Source: Streptoalloteichus hindustanus (lineage in GTDB: Bacteria; Actinomycetota; Actinomycetes; Mycobacteriales; Pseudonocardiaceae). From it: a stretch of 64,000 nt of DNA. Of the stretch, positions 10,877 to 31,337 are shown in pieces. The stretch's first letter is position 1. The number at the start of each line of letters is the position of its first letter. Below the pieces are notes generated by a model. The model was given only the letters and a program-made list of their open reading frames with translations. It searched no databases and was not told the DNA's origin. A program made the translations under genes and the position numbers. The stretch spans positions 186,001 to 250,000 of the forward strand of contig NZ_FQVN01000004.1 in the NCBI RefSeq assembly GCF_900129375.1. Reading direction: 5' to 3'.

Positions 10877-12530
10877 CGACGCGGACGTCATCGTCGTGGG
10901 CGCCGGCCTCGCCGGTCTGGTCGCGACGTACGAGCTGACCAGGGCCGGCCGGCGGGTGATCGTCGTCGAGCAGGAGAACGAGGCCAACCTCGGCGGCCAG
11001 GCGTACTGGTCCGAGGGCGGCCTGTTCCTGGTCAACACCCCCGAACAGCGGCGGGTGGGCGTCAGGGACTCGCACGAGCTGGCGCTGTCCGACTGGCTGG
11101 CCTCGGCCGGGTTCGACCGCGCCCGCGAGGACCGGTGGGCCCGCGAGTGGGCCGAGGCCTACGTGGACTTCGCCGCCGGGGAGAAACGCCGCTACCTCAC
11201 CGGGCGCGGGCTGTGCCTGACGCCCATCGTCGGCTGGCCCGAGCGGGGCGTGGGCACCGCGACCGGCCCCGGCAACTCCGTCCCCCGGTTCCACTTCACC
11301 TGGGGCACGGGACCCGAGCTCGTCCGGATCTTCCGCGACCCGGTGCTGGCCGCCGCCGAGCGCGGGTTGGTGACCTTCCGGCACCGGCACCGGGTCGACG
11401 AGATCGTCGTCGAGGGCGGGGCCGCGGTCGGCGTCCGCGGCGCGGTGCTGGTCCCCTCCCGCGAACCCCGCGGCGTGCCCTCCTCGCGGGAGGAGGTCGG
11501 CGCGTTCGAGCTGCGGGCGCAGGCGGTCCTGGTCACCTCCGGCGGCATGGGCGGCAACCACGAGATGGTGCGCGCCCACTGGCCGACCGACCGCATGGGC
11601 CCGGCTCCGGCCGCGATGCTCAGCGGAGTGCCGGCGCACGTCGACGGGCGCATGCTGCGGATCAGCGACCGCGCCGGCGCCTCGGTGGTCAACCTGGACC
11701 GGATGTGGCACTACCCCGACGCCCTGAAGCACCACACGCCGGTCTGGCCCCGGCACGGGGTCCACCTCCTGCCCGGCCCGTCGCCGCTGTGGCTGGACGC
11801 CAGCGGTCGGCGGCTGCCCCCGCCGCTGTTCCCGGGGCACACCGCCCTGCTGACGTTGCGGCACATCGCGTTGTCCGGCCACTCCCACTCGTGGCTGATC
11901 ATGACGCGCGCGATGGTGGACAAGGAGTTCGAACTGTCGGGCTCCGACCAGAACCCCGACCTGACCGGCAAGAACCCCGCGCTGGTGTTGCTGCGCCTCA
12001 AGAAGAGCCTGATGGCGCCGGTGCGCGCGTTCCTCGAACGCGGCGAGGACGTCCTGATGCACGGGAACCTGGCCGGGTTGGTCCGGGCGATGAACGCCCG
12101 CACGCCCGAAGCGCCGCTGGACTACGCGCGCGTGGAGCACGAGGTGGTGGCGCGCGACCGCCAGCTCCGCAACGACTACTCCAAGGACATGCACCTGATG
12201 TCGCTGCGCAACGTGCGCGCGTACCTGCCCGAGAGGATCACGCGGACCGCCACGCCGCACCGCCTGCTCGACCCCGCCCACGGCCCGCTGGTCGCCGTCC
12301 GCCTGCACGTGCTCACCCGCAAGACGCTGGGCGGGATCCAGACCACCCTCGACGCGCAGGCGGTACGCCCGGACGGGACGCTCTTCGACGGCCTGTACGC
12401 GGCCGGCGAGACGGCCGGGTTCGGCGGGGGAGGGATGCACGGGTACAACGCGTTGGAAGGCGTCTTCCTCGGTGGCTGCGTCTTCTCCGGCCGGACCGCC
12501 GGCCGCGCGATCCACCGGGATCTCGGATGA
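10869..12530 (+). CDS. FAD-binding dehydrogenase (fumarate reductase/3-ketosteroid dehydrogenase-like flavoprotein)
   Basis: A 553-residue flavoprotein of the FAD_binding_2 family. The dinucleotide fold VIVVGAGLAGLVATYELTRAG lies at the N-terminus, followed by the glutamate-ended strand VIVVEQE. Further family marks are GGQAYWSEGGLF, VLVTSGGMGGNHEMV and the C-terminal FAD-contacting block LYAAGETAGFGGGGMHGYNALEG. Relatives oxidise or reduce C-C bonds in steroids and other cyclic ketones; the exact substrate cannot be read here. Start ATG 10869 lies inside the preceding hydrolase gene behind GGGGAGG, and the stop overlaps the next ATG, making a coupled three-gene unit. Confidence 0.85.
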   Translation: MSDDADVIVVGAGLAGLVATYELTRAGRRVIVVEQENEANLGGQAYWSEGGLFLVNTPEQRRVGVRDSHELALSDWLASAGFDRAREDRWAREWAEAYVDFAAGEKRRYLTGRGLCLTPIVGWPERGVGTATGPGNSVPRFHFTWGTGPELVRIFRDPVLAAAERGLVTFRHRHRVDEIVVEGGAAVGVRGAVLVPSREPRGVPSSREEVGAFELRAQAVLVTSGGMGGNHEMVRAHWPTDRMGPAPAAMLSGVPAHVDGRMLRISDRAGASVVNLDRMWHYPDALKHHTPVWPRHGVHLLPGPSPLWLDASGRRLPPPLFPGHTALLTLRHIALSGHSHSWLIMTRAMVDKEFELSGSDQNPDLTGKNPALVLLRLKKSLMAPVRAFLERGEDVLMHGNLAGLVRAMNARTPEAPLDYARVEHEVVARDRQLRNDYSKDMHLMSLRNVRAYLPERITRTATPHRLLDPAHGPLVAVRLHVLTRKTLGGIQTTLDAQAVRPDGTLFDGLYAAGETAGFGGGGMHGYNALEGVFLGGCVFSGRTAGRAIHRDLG

Positions 12531-17597: not shown

Positions 17598-18514
17598 GCC
17601 ACACCTCCCGAAGTACGCCGAGCCACCATGACCAGCACACACGCCCCCAACAACGCCGTCACGGCACCGGTCGGCACCCCGGGAACGGCCTGGGCCAGGG
17701 AATCCGCGGCCGTCACGGTGCCCGCGCCGAACACCGCCGACACCGGCACCGCGACGCGCGGGTCAGCACCCACCCAACTCCGGGCGGCGTGGGGAGCCAG
17801 CAGCCCGACGAACGCCAACGCCCCGGTCGTGGCGACCGCCGCGGCCGTCGCCATCACCGCGAGCAACAACACCGCGCTCCGCCACGGCCCGACGGCCAGG
17901 CCAACCACCCGCGCGTGATCGTCGTCGACCGCGAGCACCTCCAGCACCGGGGCGAGCAGCACCGCCGCGACCGCCACGGCCAGCAGACACGGCCACAACG
18001 CCGCCCAGTGCTCCCACGTGCGACCGTTCAGCGAACCGACGAGCCACCGGGTCATCGACCCGGCCAACTGCGGCCGGGCGGTCAGCAACACCAACGTGAG
18101 CCCGGCCAGCACCGCGGAGACCAGCACGCCGACCACCGCCAGCCGAACCGGATCGCTCCCGGCCCTGGCGGCGATCACCCACAGCACTCCTCCACCCACA
18201 ACCCCGCCGAGCACCGCGGTCGCGATCACGCCCACCGGGCTGGTGGCGGCCCCACCGAACACCGTCACCACCACCGCACCCAACACGGCCCCGGACCCGA
18301 CCCCCGTGGCTTCGGGCGCTGCCAAAGGATTCCGCAACACCGCCTGCATGACAGCGCCCGCGATCCCGAGGCAGGCCCCGGCGCCCAGCCCGACCAACAC
18401 CCGGGGCAACCGCAACTCCAGCACGATCCGCTCGTCCACCTGCTCCCCGGGCACCAGCCCGGACACCACGAACCCCGCCGCCACCAGCCCCGCCGCCAGA
18501 ACCAGCCATCTCAT
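17594..18514 (-). CDS. FecCD-family ABC permease
   Basis: A 306-residue membrane protein with about nine to ten hydrophobic helices. Family marks are ELRLPRVLVGLGAGACLGIAGAVMQ, RNPLAAPEATGVGSGA and GALAFVGLLAPHAARSWVG, the last being the loop that contacts the ATPase. With its partner at 18511-19485 it forms the channel for a chelated metal or vitamin B12-like ligand. ATG at 18514 overlaps the upstream stop (ATGA), so translation is coupled. Confidence 0.92.
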   Translation of the reverse strand: MRWLVLAAGLVAAGFVVSGLVPGEQVDERIVLELRLPRVLVGLGAGACLGIAGAVMQAVLRNPLAAPEATGVGSGAVLGAVVVTVFGGAATSPVGVIATAVLGGVVGGGVLWVIAARAGSDPVRLAVVGVLVSAVLAGLTLVLLTARPQLAGSMTRWLVGSLNGRTWEHWAALWPCLLAVAVAAVLLAPVLEVLAVDDDHARVVGLAVGPWRSAVLLLAVMATAAAVATTGALAFVGLLAPHAARSWVGADPRVAVPVSAVFGAGTVTAADSLAQAVPGVPTGAVTALLGACVLVMVARRTSGGVA

Positions 18515-20573: not shown

Positions 20574-21030
20574 CGACCCACCCCCGCTCGCGCGGGGCCG
20601 ACTACCAGGCCGAGGCGTACGCGGCGTGCGAGGTGGAGCTATCCCCGCTCGCGCGGAGCCGACCACCCACCACCGGCCACCACCCCGGCGACCCGGGAGC
20701 TATCCCCGCTCGCGCGGGGCCGACGCCCCACGCCCGGGATGCGCTACAGGCGACGACGGAGCTATCCCCGCTCGCGCGGGGCCGACAGCTACGGGGACGC
20801 GGCGTTGGAGCTGCTGGCGGAGCTATCCCCGCTCGCGCGGGGCCGACACCCGGGCGTACGCGGTGCTGGCGACCTCGGGGGAGCTATCCCCGCTCGCGCG
20901 GGGCCGACACGACGGGCCCGCCGACGGCCATGACCCGACCCGAGCTATCCCCGCTCGCGCGGGGCCGACGCGGACGAGGCGTCGGAAAAGACCTGGGACG
21001 CGGAGCTATCCCCGCTCGCGCGGGGCCGAC
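20574..21030 (-). CRISPR. CRISPR array 1, type I-E, 8 repeats and 7 spacers
   Basis: In crRNA sense (minus strand) the 29-nt repeat begins GTCGGCCCCGCGCG and ends AGCGGGGATAGCTCC, with a CCCCGC/GCGGGG stem typical of I-E. Repeats end on the plus strand at 20602, 20663, 20724, 20786, 20847, 20908, 20969 and 21030. Spacers are 32 nt, with one of 33. The repeat at 20574-20602 is degenerate at four positions of its handle side and the next has one substitution, marking the old trailer end. The leader is therefore on the right, next to cas3, and the array is transcribed away from the cas genes. Confidence 0.95.
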
Positions 21031-21068: not shown

Positions 21069-21227
21069 TTTTGACCATTTGCTTTCGGAACATGCTGTTC
21101 GGGGTGGGCTGCTTGGCTGGGTTCGGTGCCATCACGGGCTTCCTGTTGGCTTGTCCTGTTCGCCCGAGTCTGTCGGTGTCACGTCCTACGCTCTCACGTC
21201 GGGTACCGCTGAGGCCGAGGAGGTTGG

Positions 21228-24197
21228 GTGCGGTTCGGTGTGGGTGACGACCCCCAGATCGTGCGGTGGCTGGGTGTTCTGTGGGGGAAGTCGAAGGAGC
21301 GGGCTGGCGGTGTGATGAATCTGCTGATGTCGCACCTGCTGGACACAGCCGCCGTGGGGGAGGTGCTCTGGGATCACTACCTCGCGCCGGCAACACGTGA
21401 GTTGTTGGATGAAGTGGCAGGCGGGCCAGGGCGCGGCAGGGCACTGTTCGCGTGGCTGTGTGGAATTCACGACTGCGGGAAAGCCACCCCGGCTCACCAG
21501 CGTCTGTGGCCCGAAGGGGCACAGGCTGTCAACAAGGCTGGTCTGACCTGGCATGAGCCGACGGCGGCACGGAATCGCTGGCGACACGATCTGGCAGGCG
21601 GTTGCCTGTTAGAAGAGGCTTTGGAACAGGCGGGGTGGCATGCAGGCCATGTGGCATGGGTCTGGCCGCTGGTGGCGGGCCACCACGGCCTGATTCCTGC
21701 CGAGGGGGAGTTACCGGAGCCGAGCAGGGCCAAGGGGCAACTGCGGGGGAACAGCGACTGGCGCCGGGTTCAGGCTGCGGTGATCGAGTTCTTCACCCGC
21801 GAACTGGGATTCGCTGATCTGAACGCGGTGCAACCCGTGCTGGTGCCTTCGCGGGCGACGCAGTTGCACCTGAGTGGCCTGGTCGTGATGGCGGACTGGA
21901 TCGCCAGCGACGAGAGGCACTTCAAGGGCATTGACGATCTCGCGAGGGTGAGCATCGAGGGGGCTCGGGAACGAGCCGAGCGGGCGTGGGCTGACCTGGG
22001 ACTGCGCCGTGGATGGGGGGCTCGGGCTGAGCCCGGACCGGAGGCATTCGAGGAACGCTTTGGCCAATCGCCGCGACCGTCGCAGAGTCTCGTGATCGAA
22101 GTTGCCCGGACGATGGCGGAGCCCGGTCTGGTGGTGGTCGAGGCGCCGATGGGCGAGGGCAAGACCAAGGCCGCACTGGCCGCCGCCGAGATCCTGGCTG
22201 CCCGGTTCGGTGCGGACGGCGTCTTCGTGGGGATGCCGACCCAGGCCACCAGCGACCCGATCTTCAGCCAGGTGCGTCAGTGGCTGGGGAAGGTCGGTCC
22301 GGAGCTGCCCTCGCAGGTGGCGTTGCTGCACGGCAAGCGCAAGTTCAACAAGGAGTGGCGGCGGCTGCTGGAGTCCTCCCCGGATGAGGCCGAGGAGCGG
22401 TTCGGCGGTGTGGACGAGTTCGGGATGGCTGACGAGGATGACGCCTACGGGTTGCCGTCATCCCCAGGTTCCGGGCAGCGGGAACGGCAGGTTCCGGCCG
22501 AGTGGTTTCTGGGCGCCAAACGCGGACTGCTGTGCCCGTTCGTAGTCGGAACTATCGACCAGTTGCTGATGACGGCGACGCGCACCAAGCACGTGATGCT
22601 GCGAATGGCCGGGCTGGCGGGCAAGGTCGTGGTGCTGGACGAGGTCCACGCCGCCGACGTCTACATGTCGAGGTTCCTGGCCGAAGGGCTGTGGTGGCTG
22701 GGACAGGCTCGCGTGCCGGTCGTGCTGCTGTCGGCGACCCTGCCACCTCGGCAACGCCAGCAGCTTGTCGAGGCGTACCTGGCCGGAGCGGCCTCGCGTG
22801 AGGAGTTCGCGCTCGAAGCTCCCATCCAGACCGTGGGCTATCCCTGCGTGACGACCGCGTGGCTCGACACGAACAGCCAGGAGCCGGTGGTCAGGACGAG
22901 CGACACGTCGTCCTGGCGGGCTGATCTCCAGGTCGAGGTGGAGGTGCTCGCCGAGTCCATTCCCGACGCCAGGGCGAGCCGCGAGCAACGGCGCCAGGCC
23001 CAACACGCCGCTGACGTCGCCGTCGCGGAACTGCTCAGGCAGCGCCTCGGGCAGGGTGGGTGCGCGCTCGTCATCCGCAACACCGTCGCCCGCGCTCAGT
23101 CGCTCTACGAGCTGTTGCGTCAGCCAGCGTGGTTCGGGGAGGACGTGGATCTTCTGCACGCCCGCCTCATCTCCCAGGAGCGGGCCGACCGCACTGAGCG
23201 CTGTCTGACGATGCTCGGTGCTGCTCGTGACGACACGGACGAGGAGAGCGTCCAGCGGCCGCAGCGCTTCGTCCTGGTCGCCACCCAACTCGCTGAGCAG
23301 TCCTTCGACGTGGATGCCGACCTGCTGGTCACTGATCTGACGACCATCGACTTGCTGCTGCAGCGGATCGGTAGGCTGCACCGCCACGACAACGTCATTC
23401 GTCCGGCAGGTGTGGACCGTCCGCGCGTGGTGATCACGGGATTCGACCCTGGTGCGGGGAAAGCGCCGAACATCCTGCCCGCCAGCGAGGTGATCTACGG
23501 GCGGTACCTGTTGATGCGCTCGGCCGCCCAAGTCCTCCAGGCCGCCACGGTGTCCACTGAGGACAGTGCGAAGACTGGGAACAGCTGGGCGATCCCCAGT
23601 CAGGTGCCGGACTTGGTGGCTTGCGTCTACGAGCCCGCGCGGCAAGTGGTGCCGGAGGCATGGCGGGATGTCGAGCAGGCGGCGTGGGAGGAGTGGGAAC
23701 AACGGCAGCGCGACCGCGCCAGCAAAGCTGACGCTTTCCTGTTGACCCGGTTGGGAGAGCACGAGAGCCGCACTCTGGCGGGGCTCCATTCCTCTGGGCC
23801 GTCCAGCGCGGGGACGGAGAGGGACATGGAGGCTGTGGTTCGCGACGGCGAGCCCAGCGTCGAGGTGATCCTGGTGAGGCGAGACGGGGACCGCTACCGT
23901 ACGTTGGCTAGCCGGCCGTTGACACAGAACGGAGATGTCGCTCCAGACCTGCTTGACGAGGTTCTTGGCGCGACAGTGCGTCTGCCGTCGAAGTTCACCG
24001 CCGTCGCCCCCAGCCAGCTGCGGCCTCTTGCCGGGTGGTACGGCCATCCCTGGCTGCGGCACAGCCTGGCGCTGGTGTTGGACCAGGCTGGCCGCGCCGA
24101 GGTCGACGGGCAGCCCTTCTGTCTGCCCAACGGCACAACCTTGCGCTACGACAAGAAACTTGGACTGGTGGAGGAACCAACTACCGCCGGCCGGTAG
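21228..24197 (+). CDS. cas3: Type I-E CRISPR helicase-nuclease Cas3
   Basis: The interference effector that degrades DNA marked by Cascade. The 989-residue protein has an N-terminal HD nuclease (His36 in SHLLDT, His81-Asp82 in GIHDCGK), the Walker-type APMGEGKTKAAL, the DEVH box (VVVLDEVHAADVYM), LLSATLP, and motif VI LLLQRIGRLHRHDN, followed by a C-terminal domain. Length and motif order are normal, so it looks functional. GTG 21228 follows AGGAGG at ideal spacing. It is divergent from array 1 and separated from cse1 by 232 bp. Confidence 0.95.
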   Translation: MRFGVGDDPQIVRWLGVLWGKSKERAGGVMNLLMSHLLDTAAVGEVLWDHYLAPATRELLDEVAGGPGRGRALFAWLCGIHDCGKATPAHQRLWPEGAQAVNKAGLTWHEPTAARNRWRHDLAGGCLLEEALEQAGWHAGHVAWVWPLVAGHHGLIPAEGELPEPSRAKGQLRGNSDWRRVQAAVIEFFTRELGFADLNAVQPVLVPSRATQLHLSGLVVMADWIASDERHFKGIDDLARVSIEGARERAERAWADLGLRRGWGARAEPGPEAFEERFGQSPRPSQSLVIEVARTMAEPGLVVVEAPMGEGKTKAALAAAEILAARFGADGVFVGMPTQATSDPIFSQVRQWLGKVGPELPSQVALLHGKRKFNKEWRRLLESSPDEAEERFGGVDEFGMADEDDAYGLPSSPGSGQRERQVPAEWFLGAKRGLLCPFVVGTIDQLLMTATRTKHVMLRMAGLAGKVVVLDEVHAADVYMSRFLAEGLWWLGQARVPVVLLSATLPPRQRQQLVEAYLAGAASREEFALEAPIQTVGYPCVTTAWLDTNSQEPVVRTSDTSSWRADLQVEVEVLAESIPDARASREQRRQAQHAADVAVAELLRQRLGQGGCALVIRNTVARAQSLYELLRQPAWFGEDVDLLHARLISQERADRTERCLTMLGAARDDTDEESVQRPQRFVLVATQLAEQSFDVDADLLVTDLTTIDLLLQRIGRLHRHDNVIRPAGVDRPRVVITGFDPGAGKAPNILPASEVIYGRYLLMRSAAQVLQAATVSTEDSAKTGNSWAIPSQVPDLVACVYEPARQVVPEAWRDVEQAAWEEWEQRQRDRASKADAFLLTRLGEHESRTLAGLHSSGPSSAGTERDMEAVVRDGEPSVEVILVRRDGDRYRTLASRPLTQNGDVAPDLLDEVLGATVRLPSKFTAVAPSQLRPLAGWYGHPWLRHSLALVLDQAGRAEVDGQPFCLPNGTTLRYDKKLGLVEEPTTAGR

Positions 24198-24238
24198 GGG
24201 GCGGGGCGGTTTCGTGGGTGGTGGGATGTGTCACCCCC

Positions 24239-24267
24239 GAAGCCTTCCCCGCGTATGCGGGGCCAAC
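24239..24267 (-). repeat. Solitary CRISPR-repeat-like hairpin between cas3 and cse1
   Basis: On the minus strand the 29 bases run from GTTGGCCCCGCATA to CGCGGGGAAGGCTTC. They match the array 1 repeat at about 21 of 29 positions, with the stem CCCCGC/GCGGGG intact and most differences in the loop. A few bases away, the plus strand reads CTGACCCGG, close to CTGACCTGG in the array 1 leader. No second repeat is visible. The rest of the 24198-24429 gap has no gene. Confidence 0.6.
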
Positions 24268-24429
24268 CTGGAAACCCTGACCCGGCACATACACAGCCAA
24301 GGCACATCCCCGCCGGTCGGCGGCCACTTCAGCGGCGCAGGGCACCTCAACATACCCCGTTGTTGACCCAGAGCAATGAGCTGATACTCTCTGTCGTCAG
24401 ATACAAAGCCAGTTCGTCCCGAGGGGCAT

Positions 24430-26166
24430 ATGGTCAACTTAGTGGACGACCCGTGGCTGCTCGCCTACCCCTGCGAAGGGACAAAGGTGGAGGAGCACTC
24501 GCTACGGGATCTCCTGCTCGACGCACACAAGTTCCGTGACCTTGTCGTGGACTTTCCCACGCAGAAGCCTGCACTGTTTCGGCAGGTCCTGCTGCCGGTC
24601 CTGCTTGCCGCGTTAGGGCGTCCGCACGACCCAACCGCCTGGGCGCCACTCTTCCAGCAGGGGAGGTTCACGCAGGGCCAGCGTGACCAATTGGGACGCT
24701 ATCTCGACAAGCACCGCCATCTCTTCGAACTGTTCGACGACGTCAACCCCTTCGCCCAGGTCGCGAACCTGGAGGCCGTCAGCGGTGAGACGAAAGGGAC
24801 GGCGTCGCTGGTGGTGACAGCGCCGACGGGCAACAACGTTCCCCTGTTCTCCTCCCGTTCCGACGCCGACCCTCTGGAGTTGACTCCCGCGCAGGCAGCC
24901 CGATGGTTGATCCACGCGCACTGCTGGGACACTGCCGCGATCAAGACCGGGGCAGTGGGCGATCGGAACGTCAAAGCGGGGAAAACGACCGGAAATCCCA
25001 CCGGCCCGCTCGGCCAGATCGGCTTCGTCATGCCGGTCGGCCGTACCCTCTACGACACGCTGCTGCTGAACATACCCAGCGGGCCGGCGCTCCCCGCCAC
25101 TGATAGTCCTCAGTGGACGCGGCGAAGCACCAGTGGCAGGGTGGAGGAAACTCGCTCCGTTGCTCTCCCTGCCTGGCAGTCCCGTGATGCCACAGGTCTT
25201 TTGGACCTGTGGACGTGGCAGTCACGGCGGATTCGGTTGATCCCTGAGCAAACCGACGATGGTGTGCGGGTGTCCCGGGTGATCATCGCGGCGGGCGACC
25301 GGATGACGCAGGTGCCCGACATCGAGCCGCACACAGCGTGGATCCTGGAAGCCACTGGGAGTGTGGGCGGGAAGACCAAGCAGGGCAAACAGCGACAACC
25401 ACTGCCACCGCGCAGGCCCCGGCGGCATCAACCGGGCAAGGCTGTATGGCGCGGGTTGGACGCCCTGCTGGCGGTGAGCCGAGAAAAGCGTGAAGCGAAA
25501 CTGAAGGCCGCCGGATACGCGACCAGCGATCTGCTCATCGAGATCAACGCACGACGAAAGAAGATGCCTTTGGACTACCCGCTGCAGATCGAGGTCAGCG
25601 GAGTCGTCTATGGCAACCAGTCCGCTGTTGTTGAGGATGTGATCTCGGACTCCATCCCGCTGCCGCTGGCGGCCCTGAGTCACGGCTCGTTGGCCAGGGC
25701 GACCATCCTGGAAGTCGTTTCCCAAGCCGAGGGCCTGGCCAACACGGTCAACAACCTCTCCGCTGACCTGCGTCGTGCGCTCGGGAGTGAGCCGGTCCCG
25801 TGGGACAAGGGACAACGGCCAGGTGAGGTGGTCCTGCACGCCCTTGACGACCTGGTCCGGCGGCTGTTGGTCGGGCTCCGCGCCGCCGGTGAGGACTTTG
25901 ACCTGGTTGAGCGTGGGCATCTGGCATGGGAGCAGAAGGCTCGCTCGGCGACCGTGCAGGTCGCCGAGCGGCTGATGGAATCGGTTCCCGGCAGTGCGTT
26001 CCTCGGTCATACGATCCAGAGCGACCGGGAACAGCGCAGCTACCGCCTCGCTACTGCGGAGGCGGGCTTCTGGCGGCAACTTGATCGCATCCTGCCGCGT
26101 GCTGCCGCCGCCAGGAAAAGTCGCGAGCGGGACGGCGAAAAGACCACGAAAACCGAGGAAGCATGA
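24430..26166 (+). CDS. casA: Cascade large subunit Cse1 (CasA, Cas8e)
   Basis: A 578-residue large subunit that recognises the PAM and recruits Cas3. It starts MVNLVDDPWLLAYPCEG, the usual Cse1 opening, and carries FELFDDVNPFAQV, ANLEAVSGETKG (L1 loop region) and the C-terminal helical bundle. ATG 24430 is preceded by GAGGGG. The stop overlaps the cse2 start (ATGA). Length is at the upper end for the family. No disruption is visible. Confidence 0.93.
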   Translation: MVNLVDDPWLLAYPCEGTKVEEHSLRDLLLDAHKFRDLVVDFPTQKPALFRQVLLPVLLAALGRPHDPTAWAPLFQQGRFTQGQRDQLGRYLDKHRHLFELFDDVNPFAQVANLEAVSGETKGTASLVVTAPTGNNVPLFSSRSDADPLELTPAQAARWLIHAHCWDTAAIKTGAVGDRNVKAGKTTGNPTGPLGQIGFVMPVGRTLYDTLLLNIPSGPALPATDSPQWTRRSTSGRVEETRSVALPAWQSRDATGLLDLWTWQSRRIRLIPEQTDDGVRVSRVIIAAGDRMTQVPDIEPHTAWILEATGSVGGKTKQGKQRQPLPPRRPRRHQPGKAVWRGLDALLAVSREKREAKLKAAGYATSDLLIEINARRKKMPLDYPLQIEVSGVVYGNQSAVVEDVISDSIPLPLAALSHGSLARATILEVVSQAEGLANTVNNLSADLRRALGSEPVPWDKGQRPGEVVLHALDDLVRRLLVGLRAAGEDFDLVERGHLAWEQKARSATVQVAERLMESVPGSAFLGHTIQSDREQRSYRLATAEAGFWRQLDRILPRAAAARKSRERDGEKTTKTEEA

Positions 26167-26801
26167 GCGAGAAGACTCCCTCGCGCTACTGGACACGGTT
26201 CATCGGCGCTGACGGGAAGTGGCGTCGGCTCAAACGGAGGCCGCAGGGCGAAGGCAAACAGAGGCCGCCGCGCGAAGACGAACAGAGGCCCCCAGGTGAG
26301 GATCTGGCGGTGTTGCGGTCAGGACTCGGCCGACCAGCGGGCACGGTGTTCGCGGTGGTGCCGTTCTACACCTCGCCCATCGACGACCATGCCGCCCGCA
26401 GGGGTGAGGTCTCGGCGGAACAGGCTGCCGAGCACGTGGCACTGGCCCTGTTCGGGCTGCACCAGCAAGGCCAAGATTCTCCGATGCACAAGCCGGGTCT
26501 GAGCGTGGGACGAGCGCTGCGGCGCTTGCGGCAGAGCGGGAGGTTCGCTGAGGAAGCTCTCGACCGGCGAGTCACCGCGACCGTGAACGCGACCAGTGTT
26601 TCCTCGTTCGCATATCGGTTGCGTGGTCTGGTCGATCAACTCCGGTCCCAGGGCATCCCGCTCGACTACGACCTGCTGCTGAAGGACGTCCTTGACTGGC
26701 ATCACGCTGATGGGCGCCAACGAGTACGACGGCGCTGGGGGCTTGCCTACTTCGACTGGAGTTCCCCGTCCACCGCTGACGCCCAGTCCGTCGAATCCTG
26801 A
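26163..26801 (+). CDS. casB: Cascade small subunit Cse2 (CasB)
   Basis: A 212-residue helical protein; two copies line the R-loop in Cascade. Family features are RYWTRFIG at the start, the FAVVPFYTSP loop, LALFGLHQQG, and RRLRQSGRFAEEALDRRVTA. An unusual charged insert near residues 26-47 consists of a 24-bp unit repeated (RPQGEGKQ, RPPREDEQ, RPPGED; 26238-26303), which lengthens the protein slightly. The gene starts in the ATGA overlap with cse1. A 125-bp gap without a gene follows before cas7e. Confidence 0.9.
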   Translation: MSEKTPSRYWTRFIGADGKWRRLKRRPQGEGKQRPPREDEQRPPGEDLAVLRSGLGRPAGTVFAVVPFYTSPIDDHAARRGEVSAEQAAEHVALALFGLHQQGQDSPMHKPGLSVGRALRRLRQSGRFAEEALDRRVTATVNATSVSSFAYRLRGLVDQLRSQGIPLDYDLLLKDVLDWHHADGRQRVRRRWGLAYFDWSSPSTADAQSVES

Positions 26802-26926
26802 GCAGCGCCTTCCGCTTCCCGCGCCGACCTTCCCTGCGTGATGAGCAAAGTTGTTGCCTGCCAAGGTGTTTCGGTGATTCTTTTCGTTTCGGCGGTCACT
26901 GCCGCCACGTCGACCACGGAGATCTG

Positions 26927-28072
26927 ATGGCCCAGCGTCGTTACCTGGACGTCCACATCCTGCAGACCGTTCCCCCGGCCAACCTGAACCGGGACGACCA
27001 AGGGAATCCCAAGGAGGCGTACTTCGGTGGGGTGCGTCGCTCCCGAGTGTCCTCGCAGGCATGGAAGAGGGCGACGCGGAAGTTCTTCGACGAGCACGAG
27101 AGCGGACTGTCCAAGGAGGACTTGGGCGTTCGGACCAAGAGGATCGTCAGCAAGTTGAGTTCGGCGGTGGTCGAGCACACCACTGCCGTGGACCCCGAGA
27201 CGGCGGGCAGGCTGGCGGCGGAAGTGGTGTCCACCCTGGGAATCAAGCCGGGGAAGAAGGAGGGTGACACCGCCTACCTGCTGTTCTACGGGCGGCGCCA
27301 GCTCTCGGCGTTGGCAGACCTCGTCGCGTCGCGAGCCGAGGAACTGGCCGTCCTCGACGAGTCGGCGCTGAAGAGCGAACTCAAGAAGCTGCCGATCGCG
27401 GACACGTTGGGCAAGGGGCATCCGGTGGATGTGGCGTTGTTCGGGCGAATGGTCGCTGACGTCCCCGCGCTCAACGTCGACGCCGCCACGCAGGTCGCCC
27501 ATGCCCTGTCCACCCACGCCACCGAGCTGGAGTTCGACTACTTCACCGCGGTGGACGACGAGAACGAGAAGGAGGAGCCCGGGGCCGGCATGATCGGCAC
27601 GGTCGGCTTCAACTCGGCCACCCTGTACCGCTACGCCACCGTGGGGCTGCACCAGCTCGTCGACAACCTCGGGGACGTGGACGCCGCCCGCCGCGCGGCC
27701 GGCCTGTTCGTCGAGTCGTTCGCCCGGTCCATGCCCACGGGGCACGGCAACGCGTTCGCCCACCGGACTCTGCCCCACCTCGTCGCGATCAGCGTGCGGG
27801 CGGACCAGCCGGTGAACCTGGTCTCGGCGTTCGAGAACCCCGTACCCGCGAACCAGGGCATCGCGGCCGCCTCGGCTCGACGTCTCGCCCGCGAACAGCG
27901 CACCGCTGTGCGCAACTGGGGAGACCAGCCCCTGCACCAGGGCCTCTGCCACAGCTTCGGGGACGAGGAGCTCGCCGCCGAGCTCGCCGAGGCGTTCGGG
28001 CCGGCGCGAACCTTCGCCGAACTGCTCACCGAACTGGACGCGCACCTCGCCGGGTTCGGGGAGCACGCCTGA
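26927..28072 (+). CDS. casC: Cascade backbone subunit Cas7e (Cse4, CasC)
   Basis: A 381-residue RAMP protein; six copies form the crRNA-binding backbone. Typical blocks are RRYLDVHILQTVPPANLNRDD, AYFGGVRRSRVSSQAWKRATR and the C-terminal SFARSMPTGHGNAFAHRTLP. No frame disruption is visible. The stop overlaps the cas5e start by one base (TGATG). Confidence 0.94.
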   Translation: MAQRRYLDVHILQTVPPANLNRDDQGNPKEAYFGGVRRSRVSSQAWKRATRKFFDEHESGLSKEDLGVRTKRIVSKLSSAVVEHTTAVDPETAGRLAAEVVSTLGIKPGKKEGDTAYLLFYGRRQLSALADLVASRAEELAVLDESALKSELKKLPIADTLGKGHPVDVALFGRMVADVPALNVDAATQVAHALSTHATELEFDYFTAVDDENEKEEPGAGMIGTVGFNSATLYRYATVGLHQLVDNLGDVDAARRAAGLFVESFARSMPTGHGNAFAHRTLPHLVAISVRADQPVNLVSAFENPVPANQGIAAASARRLAREQRTAVRNWGDQPLHQGLCHSFGDEELAAELAEAFGPARTFAELLTELDAHLAGFGEHA

Positions 28073-28917
28073 TGGCGACCCCCAGTCCCGGCACCCCCAG
28101 TGATGAGGGGCAGGCTGTCCTGCTCCTTCGCCTGGCGGGGCCGTTGCAGTCCTGGGGCGACCGCAGCGCGTTCAACCGGCGTGACACCCGACCCGAACCC
28201 ACCAAGTCCGGGATCGTCGGGCTGCTGGCCGCCGCTGAGGGACGCGCCCGAGGCGAGCCGATCGCGGACCTGACCGACCTGCGGCTCGGCGTGCGCGTCG
28301 ACCAGCCTGGACGACTGCTCCGCGACTACCACACCGTGAGCGACTACCGAGGGGGTCCGCTTCCCCAGGCCGGAGTGTCGGCCAAGGGAGTGCAGAAACT
28401 CACGTCGCCGCCCAAGTTCACCCATGTCACGACCCGCTTCTACCTGGAGGACGCGGTGTTCGTCGCTGGTCTGGCCGGCCCCCGGGACCTTCTGGAGCGC
28501 CTCGACAGCGCTGTCCGCCGACCGGCGTTCCCCCTGGCGTTGGGGCGTCGAAGCTGCGTTCCCACCCAGCCGTTGAGCCTGGGCCTGCGGGACGGGTCAC
28601 TGGAGACCGTGCTGGCGAACGAACCCTGGCAGGTCCCCGAACGGGCTCAGCGGCGCGGCCGTCGTCGCGTGGACCTGAGTGCTGTGCTGGACGTCCAGGA
28701 ATCGGGCAACGACCGGGATGCGGACGATGACTCGAAGGCGCGCGAAGACCTGGTCTACGACGTGCCAAGCACCTTCGACCCCCGCGCCAGGTCCTTCACC
28801 TCCCGCCGAGTCCAGCACACGTGGTTGTCGGTGCCGACCATGGCCACCGGCAGCGGCACCGACACCGAACCGGACGTCGACTCCGGCCATGACCCCTTCG
28901 CCCTCCTCGGCTGGTAA
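28072..28917 (+). CDS. casD: Cascade subunit Cas5e (CasD)
   Basis: A 281-residue RAMP protein that caps the crRNA 5' handle. It contains LLLRLAGPLQSWGDRSAFNRRDTRPEPTKSG in overlapping recognisable pieces, GLLAAAEGR and the conserved DYHTVSDYRGG. The C-terminal DPFALLGW ending is also typical. Start ATG 28072 shares a base with the cas7e stop. Intact by inspection. Confidence 0.93.
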   Translation: MATPSPGTPSDEGQAVLLLRLAGPLQSWGDRSAFNRRDTRPEPTKSGIVGLLAAAEGRARGEPIADLTDLRLGVRVDQPGRLLRDYHTVSDYRGGPLPQAGVSAKGVQKLTSPPKFTHVTTRFYLEDAVFVAGLAGPRDLLERLDSAVRRPAFPLALGRRSCVPTQPLSLGLRDGSLETVLANEPWQVPERAQRRGRRRVDLSAVLDVQESGNDRDADDDSKAREDLVYDVPSTFDPRARSFTSRRVQHTWLSVPTMATGSGTDTEPDVDSGHDPFALLGW

Positions 28918-28921
28918 GCAC

Positions 28922-29728
28922 ATGCCCTACCTCTCCCGAATCAGGATCAACCCGCTGCGGAAGGCCAGCCGCTCCATGCTGGCCAGTCCCCGCGTCCTGC
29001 ACGCCGCCGTGGTCAACGCGATTCCCGACCACCCCACCACCGAACGCAGCCTGTGGCGCCTGGACGCCGATGATCCGCGCCGCCCGCACCTGGTGGTCCT
29101 CACCCAGTCCCGTCCGGACTGGAACCACCTCGTCGAGCAGGCCGGGTGGCCCGAGGCCGACGGCGAGCACTTCGTGATCGCCGACTACAACCGGCTGCTG
29201 ACACGGCTGCGGACCGGGCAGGAGTTCGCCTTCCGCCTGACCGCCAATCCCGTGCAGAACACCATGACCCCAAACAAACTCACAGCCCATCAGGCAGAGG
29301 ACAGCGACACCGAGCGGAGCCGGTCGTATCGCCTCGGCCACCGCACCGCGGCGATGCAGCTGAGGTGGTTTCTGACCAGGACGGACAAGTGGGGGTTCGA
29401 GGTGCCCGAAGCCACCACAGCCGCACCCGCTGTCGACCTCGGCCAGCAGCCCACGCACCAGGCTGACACGGACGACGTTCTTGGCCAGACCCCGAGGGAC
29501 GTGCGCATCATCGCGCGCGAACGCCGCTCGTTCAGCAAGCGAGACGGGAAACCTCCCGTGGTGTTGTCCACCGCCACCTTCCAGGGCCGACTTCGCGTCA
29601 CCGACCCAGAACTGCTCACCGAACGGCTGCTCACGGGCATCGGGCCGGGCAAGGCCTACGGCTGTGGGCTGCTCACCCTCGCCCCGCTGACGAACACGGT
29701 GACGGGAAACGGGGGCGCACGTGGCTGA
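28922..29728 (+). CDS. casE: crRNA endoribonuclease Cas6e (CasE)
   Basis: A 268-residue enzyme that cleaves the repeat hairpin to release crRNAs. It begins MPYLSRIRINPLRKASRSML; the conserved His in the following SPRVLHAAV segment is the likely catalytic residue. The glycine-rich loop GIGPGKAYGCGLLTL near the C-terminus is the RAMP signature. ATG 28922 is four bases after the cas5e stop. Its substrate repeats in array 2 have a contracted loop, which is odd for this enzyme. The stop lies inside the start of cas1. Confidence 0.93.
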   Translation: MPYLSRIRINPLRKASRSMLASPRVLHAAVVNAIPDHPTTERSLWRLDADDPRRPHLVVLTQSRPDWNHLVEQAGWPEADGEHFVIADYNRLLTRLRTGQEFAFRLTANPVQNTMTPNKLTAHQAEDSDTERSRSYRLGHRTAAMQLRWFLTRTDKWGFEVPEATTAAPAVDLGQQPTHQADTDDVLGQTPRDVRIIARERRSFSKRDGKPPVVLSTATFQGRLRVTDPELLTERLLTGIGPGKAYGCGLLTLAPLTNTVTGNGGARG

Positions 29729-30709
29729 CATCTGGTGGAAGGCCGACCCGCTCGACCTGCACCGCCTGGTTGACCGCGTTTCGAGCATTTACGTGGAACG
29801 CAGTCACATCGACCGGGACGAGAACGCGGTCGTCCTGATCAACAAGCGAGAGACGGTGCGGGTGCCCGCCGCGTTGATCGCCGTCATGCTGCTCGGTCCC
29901 GGCACTCGTATCACCCACGGTGCGGTCAATCTGCTCGGCGACTCCGGCACAGCCGTGTGCTGGGTCGGCGAACAGGGCGTCCGGCTGTACGCCTCGGGAT
30001 TGGGACCCAGTCGCGGCGCCGGACTGCTGAATCGCCAGGCCTGGCTGGTCAGTCGCCGCCAACCCTCGCCTCGCTGTACGGGACGCGCGACGTCTCCGAG
30101 CTGTTCAGACGCATCTACGTGGCAAGGAAGGTGCCCGGGCGCGCAAGTCCTGCCAAGAGCACTCCCGCACCGGTATCCCCTGGAGTGGCTGTGGGTCCGC
30201 GCCGGTGATCCCTTTGCGGCCGGTGACGACCTGAACAGGTTGCTGTCGGGGACCAGGCGTCCTCTACGGCATCTGTCAGGTCGTCATCGTCGGCTTGTGC
30301 CAGCCCGGGGCTTGGCTTCCCACCGGTCGGCCACCTCGTTCGTCATGGACAGCCGCTCTGTACAAGGTTGACTACACCATTCCCCGTTCGACCTCACCGC
30401 CAGGAGACTCGTCAAGGATCGCGAAGCCCGGACCTCCTTGCGAGATGGCATCGCGGAGAACCTGCTTCTGGGCACGAACACTGTGATGCGAAAGCGTTGC
30501 CGACACCTGAGGAAGGGAGGGTGAGGAGCTCGACCCCCTGAACGGGCTGTGGGATGAGGAGGTTGGGTGGGGCCCCTGGTGGAGACAACTGGTCCAGCCT
30601 GCCAACCGATAACGCTATGTCGCTGGTCGATCCCGGGATGGGGGAGCGGCACATCGCGGTGGTCGGCCCGGAGTTCGACGCTCCCGATGACGGCGCGAGG
30701 CAGCCATGA
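29721..30709 (+). pseudogene. cas1: Broken CRISPR integrase gene cas1 (type I-E)
   Basis: The N-terminal third reads cleanly as Cas1e (MADIWWKADPLDLHRLVDRV, GTAVCWVGEQGVRLYASGLG, NRQAWLVS) up to about 30053. After that the conserved Cas1 segments appear in changing frames: LYGTRDVSEL, LRGKEGARARK, FAAGDDLNRLLS, VLYGICQVVIVGL, TSFVMD, LYKVDYTIP, FDLTARRLVKDREARTSLRD, LWDEEVG, PGGDNWSS. That needs at least eight indels. The longest surviving product is 216 residues, against about 300 or more for a working Cas1e. One 4-bp deletion (after 30385) lies inside the segment matched by spacer 1 of array 2. The remnant ends at a TGA overlapping the cas2 start. Adaptation by this locus should be dead unless another Cas1 exists. 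Confidence 0.93.
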
Positions 30710-30987
30710 CCACCGTCATCGTGCTCATCGCCGCGCCCGAGGGACTACGCGGACACCTGACCAGGTGGATGGTGGAGGTCAACGCCGGGGTGTTCGTGGG
30801 TAACCCGAGCCAGCGCGTCCGCGATCGGCTCTGGGACCTGCTGGCCAGCCGAATCGGTGATGGACAGGCGGTGCTGGTGGAGCCAGCGGAGAACGAGCAG
30901 GGTTGGGCGGTCCGCACCGCTGGCCGAGACCGCTGGCATCTCGCGGACGTCGACGGACTGGTATTTTCGGGGCGTCTTCACCAATAA
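30706..30987 (+). CDS. cas2: CRISPR adaptation protein Cas2e
   Basis: A 93-residue Cas2 of the I-E (CT1978) type, partner of Cas1 in spacer integration. It starts MTTVIVLIAAPEGLRGHLTR and has VNAGVFVGNPSQRVRDRLWD and the C-terminal FSGRLHQ. It is complete, with GAGG before the ATG, although cas1 just upstream is destroyed. Its last codons lie within 20 bases of array 2, so the end of the gene overlaps the array leader. Confidence 0.93.
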   Translation: MTTVIVLIAAPEGLRGHLTRWMVEVNAGVFVGNPSQRVRDRLWDLLASRIGDGQAVLVEPAENEQGWAVRTAGRDRWHLADVDGLVFSGRLHQ

Positions 30988-31003
30988 AACCCCAAGTCAA
31001 CAA
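30966..31003 (+). promoter_or_regulatory. Leader of CRISPR array 2, overlapping the cas2 3' end
   Basis: The last 20 bases before the first repeat are AAAACCCCAAGTCAACAAGT, 17/20 identical to the array 1 leader end. The preceding bases are cas2 coding sequence, so either the leader is very short or it extends into cas2. Confidence 0.65.
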
Positions 31004-31337
31004 GTGTCGTCCCCCCATGCGGGGATAGCTCGGCCGACTACACCATTCCCCTCGCGTTCGACCTGTCGTCCCCGCGCGTGCGGGGATAGCTCCCCGTTGT
31101 CGCCCAGCAGATAGACCCGTTTGACGTCTCGTCCCCGCGTGCGGGGATAGCTCTCGAGACGTGGGAGATACGGACGGCCTGCGTCTCGTCTCGTCCCCGC
31201 GTGCGGGGATAGCTCGCTCGCCGAGCGCCTCGGCGAGCACTGAAGGAGGTCTCGTCCCCGCGTGCGGGGATAGCTCCCCGGCGGCGACCAGGGCGTCGCG
31301 CAGCTTGGCGTCTCGTCCCCGCGTGCGGGGAACGCTC
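31004..31337 (+). CRISPR. CRISPR array 2, type I-E, 6 repeats and 5 spacers, with a cas1-derived first spacer
   Basis: Repeats of 28 nt start at 31004, 31065, 31126, 31188, 31249 and 31310; spacers are 33-34 nt. Repeats three to five run GTCTCGTCCCCGCG-TGCGGGGATAGCTC, leaving only GT between the CCCCGC and GCGGGG arms. The second repeat keeps a four-base loop. The first differs at three positions and the sixth ends AACGCTC. A further degenerate repeat-like sequence (31344-31371) follows after only six bases, as if a spacer had been lost. The leader is on the left. Spacer 1 (31032-31064) encodes ADYTIPLAFDL, a conserved Cas1 segment. Confidence 0.94.

Follow-up and report, generated by a model that had tools for sequence, protein, structure and literature searches.

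The window analysed here is a 64,000-nucleotide stretch (G000:C12:186001-250000) of the 7.28-Mb draft genome of Streptoalloteichus hindustanus (33 contigs), the only genome of this species in the analysis. It holds a type I-E CRISPR operon in the order cas3, cse1, cse2, cas7, cas5, cas6, a remnant of cas1, cas2 and a CRISPR array (array 2), all on the forward strand. The models of the I-E interference set (cas3_core, cas3_HD, casA, casB, casC, casD and casE) all score above their cut-offs. The six interference genes are full-length and open, as expected of a type I-E system, with dN/dS of 0.18-0.29 against the reference congener, a single genome of Streptoalloteichus tenebrarius (DSM 40477; G001). 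Cas2e is fine as well (61.3 bits, cut-off 33.15), and the 28-29-nt palindromic repeats, the 61-nt unit and the leader adjoining cas2 are those of type I-E, apart from a shortened repeat 1. The departure is cas1e, whose frame reaches 110.4 bits against a cut-off of 215.6 and covers only model positions 3-106 of 269.

In S. tenebrarius, the cas1 frame (L004 1492-2592, 366 aa) lacks the stop found in the window and reads into cas2, which there is without the ATG start of the window copy. Window positions 21172-31092 align to one contig of that genome (G001:C39), the rest of which is unalignable except for short weak matches and array repeats. This points to a different chromosomal place of the I-E locus in the two species, by relocation or transfer.

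Table. Features of the type I-E locus, in window coordinates.
Feature	Position	Strand	Remarks
Array 1	20575..21030	-	8 repeats; leader side adjoins cas3
cas3	21228..24197	+	profile match, conserved
cse1 (casA)	24430..26166	+	profile match, conserved
cse2 (casB)	26163..26801	+	profile match, conserved
cas7e	26927..28072	+	profile match, conserved
cas5e	28072..28917	+	profile match, conserved
cas6e	28928..29728	+	frame used for dN/dS; open frame from 28679, start codon uncertain
cas1 5' part	29721..30063	+	114 codons, conserved
Damaged cas1 block	30064..30606	+	543 bp; 15 deletions, 1 insertion
AAG PAM at resident target	30364..30366	+	
Resident protospacer remnant	30366..30394	+	29 of 33 nt left
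cas1 3' tail	30607..30709	+	little changed though 3' of frameshifts
cas2e	30706..30987	+	intact (TIGR01873), dN/dS 0.20
Leader end	30988..31005	+	GTCAACAAGT; conserved in S. tenebrarius
Repeat 1	31006..31031	+	26 nt, weakened stem
Spacer 1 of array 2	31032..31064	+	33 nt, GGCCGACTACACCATTCCCCTCGCGTTCGACCT; copy of cas1e; first G PAM-derived
Repeat 2	31065..31092	+	28 nt, canonical
Repeats 3-6	31126..31337	+	shifted variant repeat; spacers 2-5 within 31093-31309

Array 2 starts beside cas2, where the leader end CAACAAGT is common to S. tenebrarius, and its repeat 6 at the far end is degenerate. Spacer 1 is therefore leader-proximal, as a sequence-only reading of this DNA had it. The spacer sits between repeat 1, which is short of two bases and part of its stem (fold energy -11.2 kcal/mol), and the canonical repeat 2 (-17.2 kcal/mol). 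Mutated adjacent repeats are among the marks of ineffective self-targeting named in the relevant part of a review (PMC6990116). Further along the array, repeats 3-6 have a loop shorter by 2 nt and two additional 5' bases, and the unit stays at ~61 nt, the product that would be expected of a fixed-length ruler. Repeat 2 is canonical again after these variant repeats, which simple duplication does not explain.

Spacer 1 is a piece of cas1e. Translated from its second base it reads ADYTIPLAFDL, and the same stretch of cas1 in S. tenebrarius is intact and identical at 32 of 33 bases, within an open 366-aa frame. With the AA in front of that site, the PAM is AAG. The sole mismatch (GAC in the spacer, GAG in S. 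tenebrarius) falls at guide position 6, and type I-E interference does not read every sixth guide base. At this base the resident remnant agrees with spacer 1, a hint of own-lineage origin that is blunted by the GAC of some other genera. A chance match is ruled out by a BLAST E-value of 9e-11 against the S. tenebrarius locus (search of 2,157 spacers against related loci), together with the right length and PAM register. Among the distinct spacers from related I-E loci, approximately 2,157 by a crude extraction (chains of >=3 repeats, overlapping loci, some repeats unresolved), spacer 1 is the only one to match cas1. It is likewise the only one of 133 spacers from the examined arrays of its own genome to match the S. 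tenebrarius cas locus; one other matches elsewhere on that cas contig, with 7 mismatches. At up to 7 mismatches, none of the 133 matches the window outside its own place in an array.

The resident counterpart of the spacer is damaged. CC has become TT at 30368-30369 (guide positions 2-3), four nucleotides are gone at 30385/30386, and the AAG in front is kept; our alignment agrees in all of this with the sequence-only reading. Up to 3 mismatches to the 31-nt core, the genome holds no other place than the spacer itself. As the comparison with S. tenebrarius shows, it is the spacer that preserves the sequence of cas1 before the damage. By its 32/33 match to a cas gene of its own subtype in a relative, spacer 1 resembles an anti-cas spacer. 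Its array is no orphan, as the adjoining interference operon is open and conserved. Nor does the spacer qualify as functionally self-targeting, which takes a complete match to the own genome with a PAM: the PAM is kept, and two seed mismatches and the 4-nt deletion break the match.

The damage extends well beyond the target. In a 9.9-kb alignment to S. tenebrarius there are 32 indels, 16 of them at 30071-30606, three at the array end and 13 elsewhere. None falls in the 343 bp before the block or the ~400 bp after it (Fisher 8e-7), and the operon outside the block has at most 4 per 540 bp. The count depends on the aligner: a second one puts 20 indels into the block and leaves the remainder of cas1, as well as cas2 up to the repeats, free of them. 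Deletions of 13, 12, 4 and 4 nt are mixed with substitutions, 70 of which are assigned to the S. hindustanus lineage. Amino-acid-changing sites tell the same story: 0/251 differ from S. tenebrarius in the 5' part of cas1 (with 28 synonymous differences), 59/384 in the block and 7/77 in the 3' tail, mostly in the last codons. The tail has 1 change in 22 codons where ~7 are expected, over a short stretch. Columns invariant in S. tenebrarius and 12 further relatives are broken at 0/175 in the 5' part, 32/233 in the block (p 1e-8) and 0/14 in the tail. Relatives compared in pairs have no such contrast between 5' part and block (0.032 and 0.051 for S. tenebrarius against Goodfellowiella). The conserved 5' part may be a truncated Cas1 domain still under selection. 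The sequence-only reading had explained the loss of cas1 by the single deletion in the protospacer, as an escape mutation. This explains little, because that deletion is one of 16 indels which, with the 70 lineage substitutions, lie in 543 bp between conserved flanks.

Several sources of the block were considered. Shared bases assign it to the lineage of the 5' part (p 0.31), and import from another genus is not supported. R-loop deamination is not supported as its cause (C>T 10/87 against G>A 6/111 at codon positions 1-2, p 0.19), nor is microhomology-mediated deletion, with only 0-2 bases of homology at the 15 deletions. No donor copy was found in the own genome or in 297 genomes of the family.

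Age is where the block and its surroundings differ. At amino-acid-changing sites the block diverges by 0.15, roughly half of the synonymous figure (0.31-0.36). In a first control, 10.0 kb of BLAST-matched synteny in the window that omitted the stretches between matches, there were 23 indels, with no 540 bp holding more than 7. Aligned end to end (12.3 kb), the control region has 69 indels. The highest count in 540 bp is 16, reached where the sequences align poorly (near 9.3-9.9 kb); around 2.0 and 4.8 kb the count rises to 12. Sixteen indels per 540 bp are thus normal for unconstrained DNA between these two species, and a burst of hypermutation is no longer favoured. The block is unusual for a cas gene, yet its apparent age is that of the split between the species, in keeping with cas1 having decayed earlier on. 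Cas2, spacer 1 and the first repeats seem to point instead to a recent loss of adaptation. In cas2, 14 amino-acid changes stand against ~31 predicted at the block's rate (p 0.0006); of the 33 bases of spacer 1, one departs from S. tenebrarius where ~5 would be expected to (p 0.04). The leader-proximal repeat equals the array consensus in 16 of 18 leader-led arrays, the exceptions being array 2 and the L122 array; several of the 18 have just 3 or 4 repeats, too few for a meaningful consensus, and the clock assumes weak constraint and would be weakened by selection on repeats. Plain decay after the capture fits this pattern poorly. A recent loss and an old block could both hold if a copy that had decayed earlier took the block's place; the alternative, which would also fit better, is an older loss with lasting selection on the 5' fragment of cas1.

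The loss probably reaches beyond this locus. A Pfam model of the Cas1 family has no match in the genome, and no second intact Cas1 was found; the model leaves the remnant unreported too, so the search covers intact genes only. A second I-E interference operon lies on contig C21 of S. hindustanus (L138 7593-14989, minus strand), with relatives of cas3, cse1, cas7, cas5 and cas6 at 26-43% identity. Within the 20 kb examined it has no cas1, cas2 or cse2 match, and no CRISPR array there is among the 20 of 59 repeat families listed. The 18 leader-led I-E-like arrays (L122-L135, L096 and window 20575-21030 and 31006-31337), taken from two sets of 40 scored candidates each minus a few short matches, belong to several repeat classes and share a similar leader end such as CAGGTCAGCAAGT. 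The window cas1 would have served both operons and all arrays. Given a genome with no Cas1 family match, a second operon without cas1 and cas2, and 18 arrays, its loss probably froze the whole CRISPR memory. Ku is present in the genome, so end-joining is possible.

The comparisons support a Streptoalloteichus-type cas1 as the source of spacer 1, and searches outside the genus gave nothing closer. Among 72,556 plasmid records 79 carry cas1, with identities of 60-80% throughout (77% for the best listed), and 1 of 50,697 phage records matches it, weakly. Two exact-pattern scans of viral contigs gave 0 matches. Capture from a phage or plasmid is not supported by these searches, which hold no perfect match to a cas1 on a mobile element, the finding that the sequence-only reading had said would count against it. 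The other such finding, a relative with the cas1 deletion and without the spacer, is equally absent: S. tenebrarius has an open cas1, and spacer 1 is missing from both of its arrays examined (C39, C21). In 397 genomes of the order, a sample that did not list S. tenebrarius, up to 3 mismatches returned only the spacer itself and one genome with 3 mismatches.

Two other spacers of related loci match DNA less than 10 kb from their own arrays. In Rhizohabitans arisaemae (L049), the spacer at 12306-12338 equals 20671-20703 (33/33, AAG PAM), 8 kb away, at the end of what we take to be an acyl carrier protein gene. In Streptomyces caatingaensis (L043), the spacer at 12340-12371 equals 17952-17983 (32/32), 5.6 kb away, with no obvious AAG PAM. 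A Streptomyces minutiscleroticus spacer (L068 11802-11834) matches two other Streptomyces I-E loci at 30/33 (L074 6228-6258 and L088 6267-6297), in L074 within an open frame resembling cse1. It is possibly a second cas-targeting spacer, directed against a different I-E lineage.

We are evenly poised on the reading that the last act of this array was the capture of its own lineage's cas1, and that only descendants without the target persist. The last spacer to enter array 2 would have derived from a then intact cas1 of the lineage, in a type I-E system with apparently no second cas1; the donor would most likely have been the gene on the chromosome ~640 bp upstream of the array. With AAG beside the protospacer, spacer 1 would have marked that cas1 for Cascade-Cas3. 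The persisting descendants would have lost the target when a decayed version took the place of a block of ~540 bp around it, or arose from that block, a change that would also have destroyed Cas1. Repeat 1, ahead of spacer 1 in the precursor RNA, is damaged as well. Adaptation would then be dead, with the interference genes and other arrays remaining, and the spacer 1 guide, if still made, would target relatives' intact cas1 and no longer self. Since the S. tenebrarius gene differs only at guide position 6, spacer 1 may block the replacement of cas1. Judged by its genes, the system probably attacks still and learns no more. Own-cas1 capture with adaptation lost and interference kept had been proposed from the sequence alone, and that part gains from the lineage match, the absent Cas1 family match and the conserved interference genes. 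With one genome of the species and one of a congener, the order of events is inferred, and an origin of the spacer in the resident gene is beyond proof; the same spacer would result if a close relative's incoming DNA had been the source. A further point against this reading is that one escape needs one mutation, and 16 indels call for another cause. Touchon and Rocha (PMC2886076) also dispute, for E. coli, that captured spacers lead to the disappearance of cas genes.

We consider it rather unlikely that spacer 1 came from outside as an anti-cas guard. On this account the resident cas1 was already broken; Cas1 came with an I-E locus arriving from a close relative, a piece of whose own cas1 stayed behind as spacer 1, and such loci are now repelled. 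The block looks as old as the species split in both substitutions and indels and the spacer is nearly unchanged, just as an outside guard would have it. Type I-E cas1 does occur on plasmids, in the 79 records above, and 21 of the 66 loci examined (some genomes counted twice) keep AAG and have no seed mismatch to spacer 1 under the usual type I-E seed and PAM rules. E. coli I-F offers a precedent in the pertinent parts of PMC2886076 and of PMC8616872 (section 20). The price is lasting selection on a 114-codon cas1 fragment, on cas2 and on an out-of-frame tail. The undecayed first repeats of the other arrays are also left unexplained, and neither the plasmid, phage and viral-contig searches nor the order-wide one found an element with a cas1 closer than that of S. 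tenebrarius. Ordinary neutral decay, in which cas1 became useless for unrelated reasons and rotted after the capture, with the spacer a coincidence, strikes us as quite improbable. The ratio of divergences in the block is that of an old pseudogene, its indel density is that of unconstrained DNA elsewhere, and its deletion bias is 15 to 1, such bias being usual in bacterial pseudogenes. Over the same time, however, the 5' part, cas2, spacer 1 and most leader-proximal repeats have not decayed.

Still less is to be said for a block that is an assembly or sequencing error, with cas1 intact in the living strain. Its sharp boundaries and the draft state of the genome would fit, whereas deletions of such sizes among substitutions resemble natural decay and unconstrained DNA elsewhere, the shared bases assign the block to the lineage of the genus, and repeat 1 is damaged too. 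We give hardly any credence to regulation of cas1 by partial pairing of the spacer 1 guide, in the manner of known crRNA-like regulators. The PAM kept at the resident site would suit it; two adjacent seed mismatches and a 4-nt gap would not, nor would a target inside a dead gene rather than at a promoter, nor a full-length spacer nearly identical to intact cas1.

A more specific form of own-lineage capture, which we put forward only tentatively, is that CRISPR autoimmunity edited its own adaptation module. Here the self-captured spacer would have led to a cut in cas1, and repair would have copied ~540 bp from a long-decayed relative of cas1 by gene conversion, erasing the protospacer and Cas1 in one step. 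Such a conversion would account for an old-looking block between young-looking flanks. The spacer would then act as a ratchet, destroying any incoming intact cas1 of the genus and fixing the memory in a cell with many arrays, two interference operons and no learning.

The closest known case is in E. coli, where orphan I-F arrays carry spacers that match Cas1, Cas3 and Csy2 genes of their own subtype and the cognate genes are missing, according to the parts of PMC2886076 that treat them. Experimental support for these anti-cas spacers (Almendros 2016) is described in section 20 of PMC8616872, and capture of cas pieces as the cause of cas loss is, in those same parts of PMC2886076, a proposal of others opposed by Touchon and Rocha. 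Spacer 1 of S. hindustanus likewise matches a cas gene of its own subtype. The difference is that here an actinomycete has a type I-E system in which cas1 alone is destroyed, with its remains next to the array, and the interference genes are open and conserved. Spacers against the own chromosome that come with escape damage, as the portion of PMC6990116 on them describes, are tolerated through an altered target, adjacent repeat or cas genes. The present case is similar, except that the target is cas1, so that damage to the target and loss of adaptation would be one event, and that spacer and chromosome no longer match completely. Protospacer hotspots in E. coli lie near oriC, near Ter and upstream of CRISPR-1, as stated in the hotspot passage of a review (PMC10011333). 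The last of these suits capture from a cas1 ~640 bp upstream of array 2, on the leader side; the hotspot is a bias seen in adaptation studies, whereas ours is one fixed natural spacer. Among the literature matches listed, as far as their accessible text goes, none describes a type I-E case of a cas1-targeting spacer or of cas1 loss, or a native CRISPR system of Streptoalloteichus. As anti-cas spacers are already known from E. coli I-F, a case in which interference is kept and only adaptation is lost is a variant and not a new kind.

CRISPR systems without adaptation genes exist, and to our knowledge how they lose these genes is mostly guessed. In this locus the lost sequence survives in the spacer and the damage in the wreck, which makes the order of events testable. 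If the favoured reading is true, cells in nature can lose adaptation yet keep interference through self-capture beside the array, and the spacer that ended adaptation can also keep cas1 from returning.
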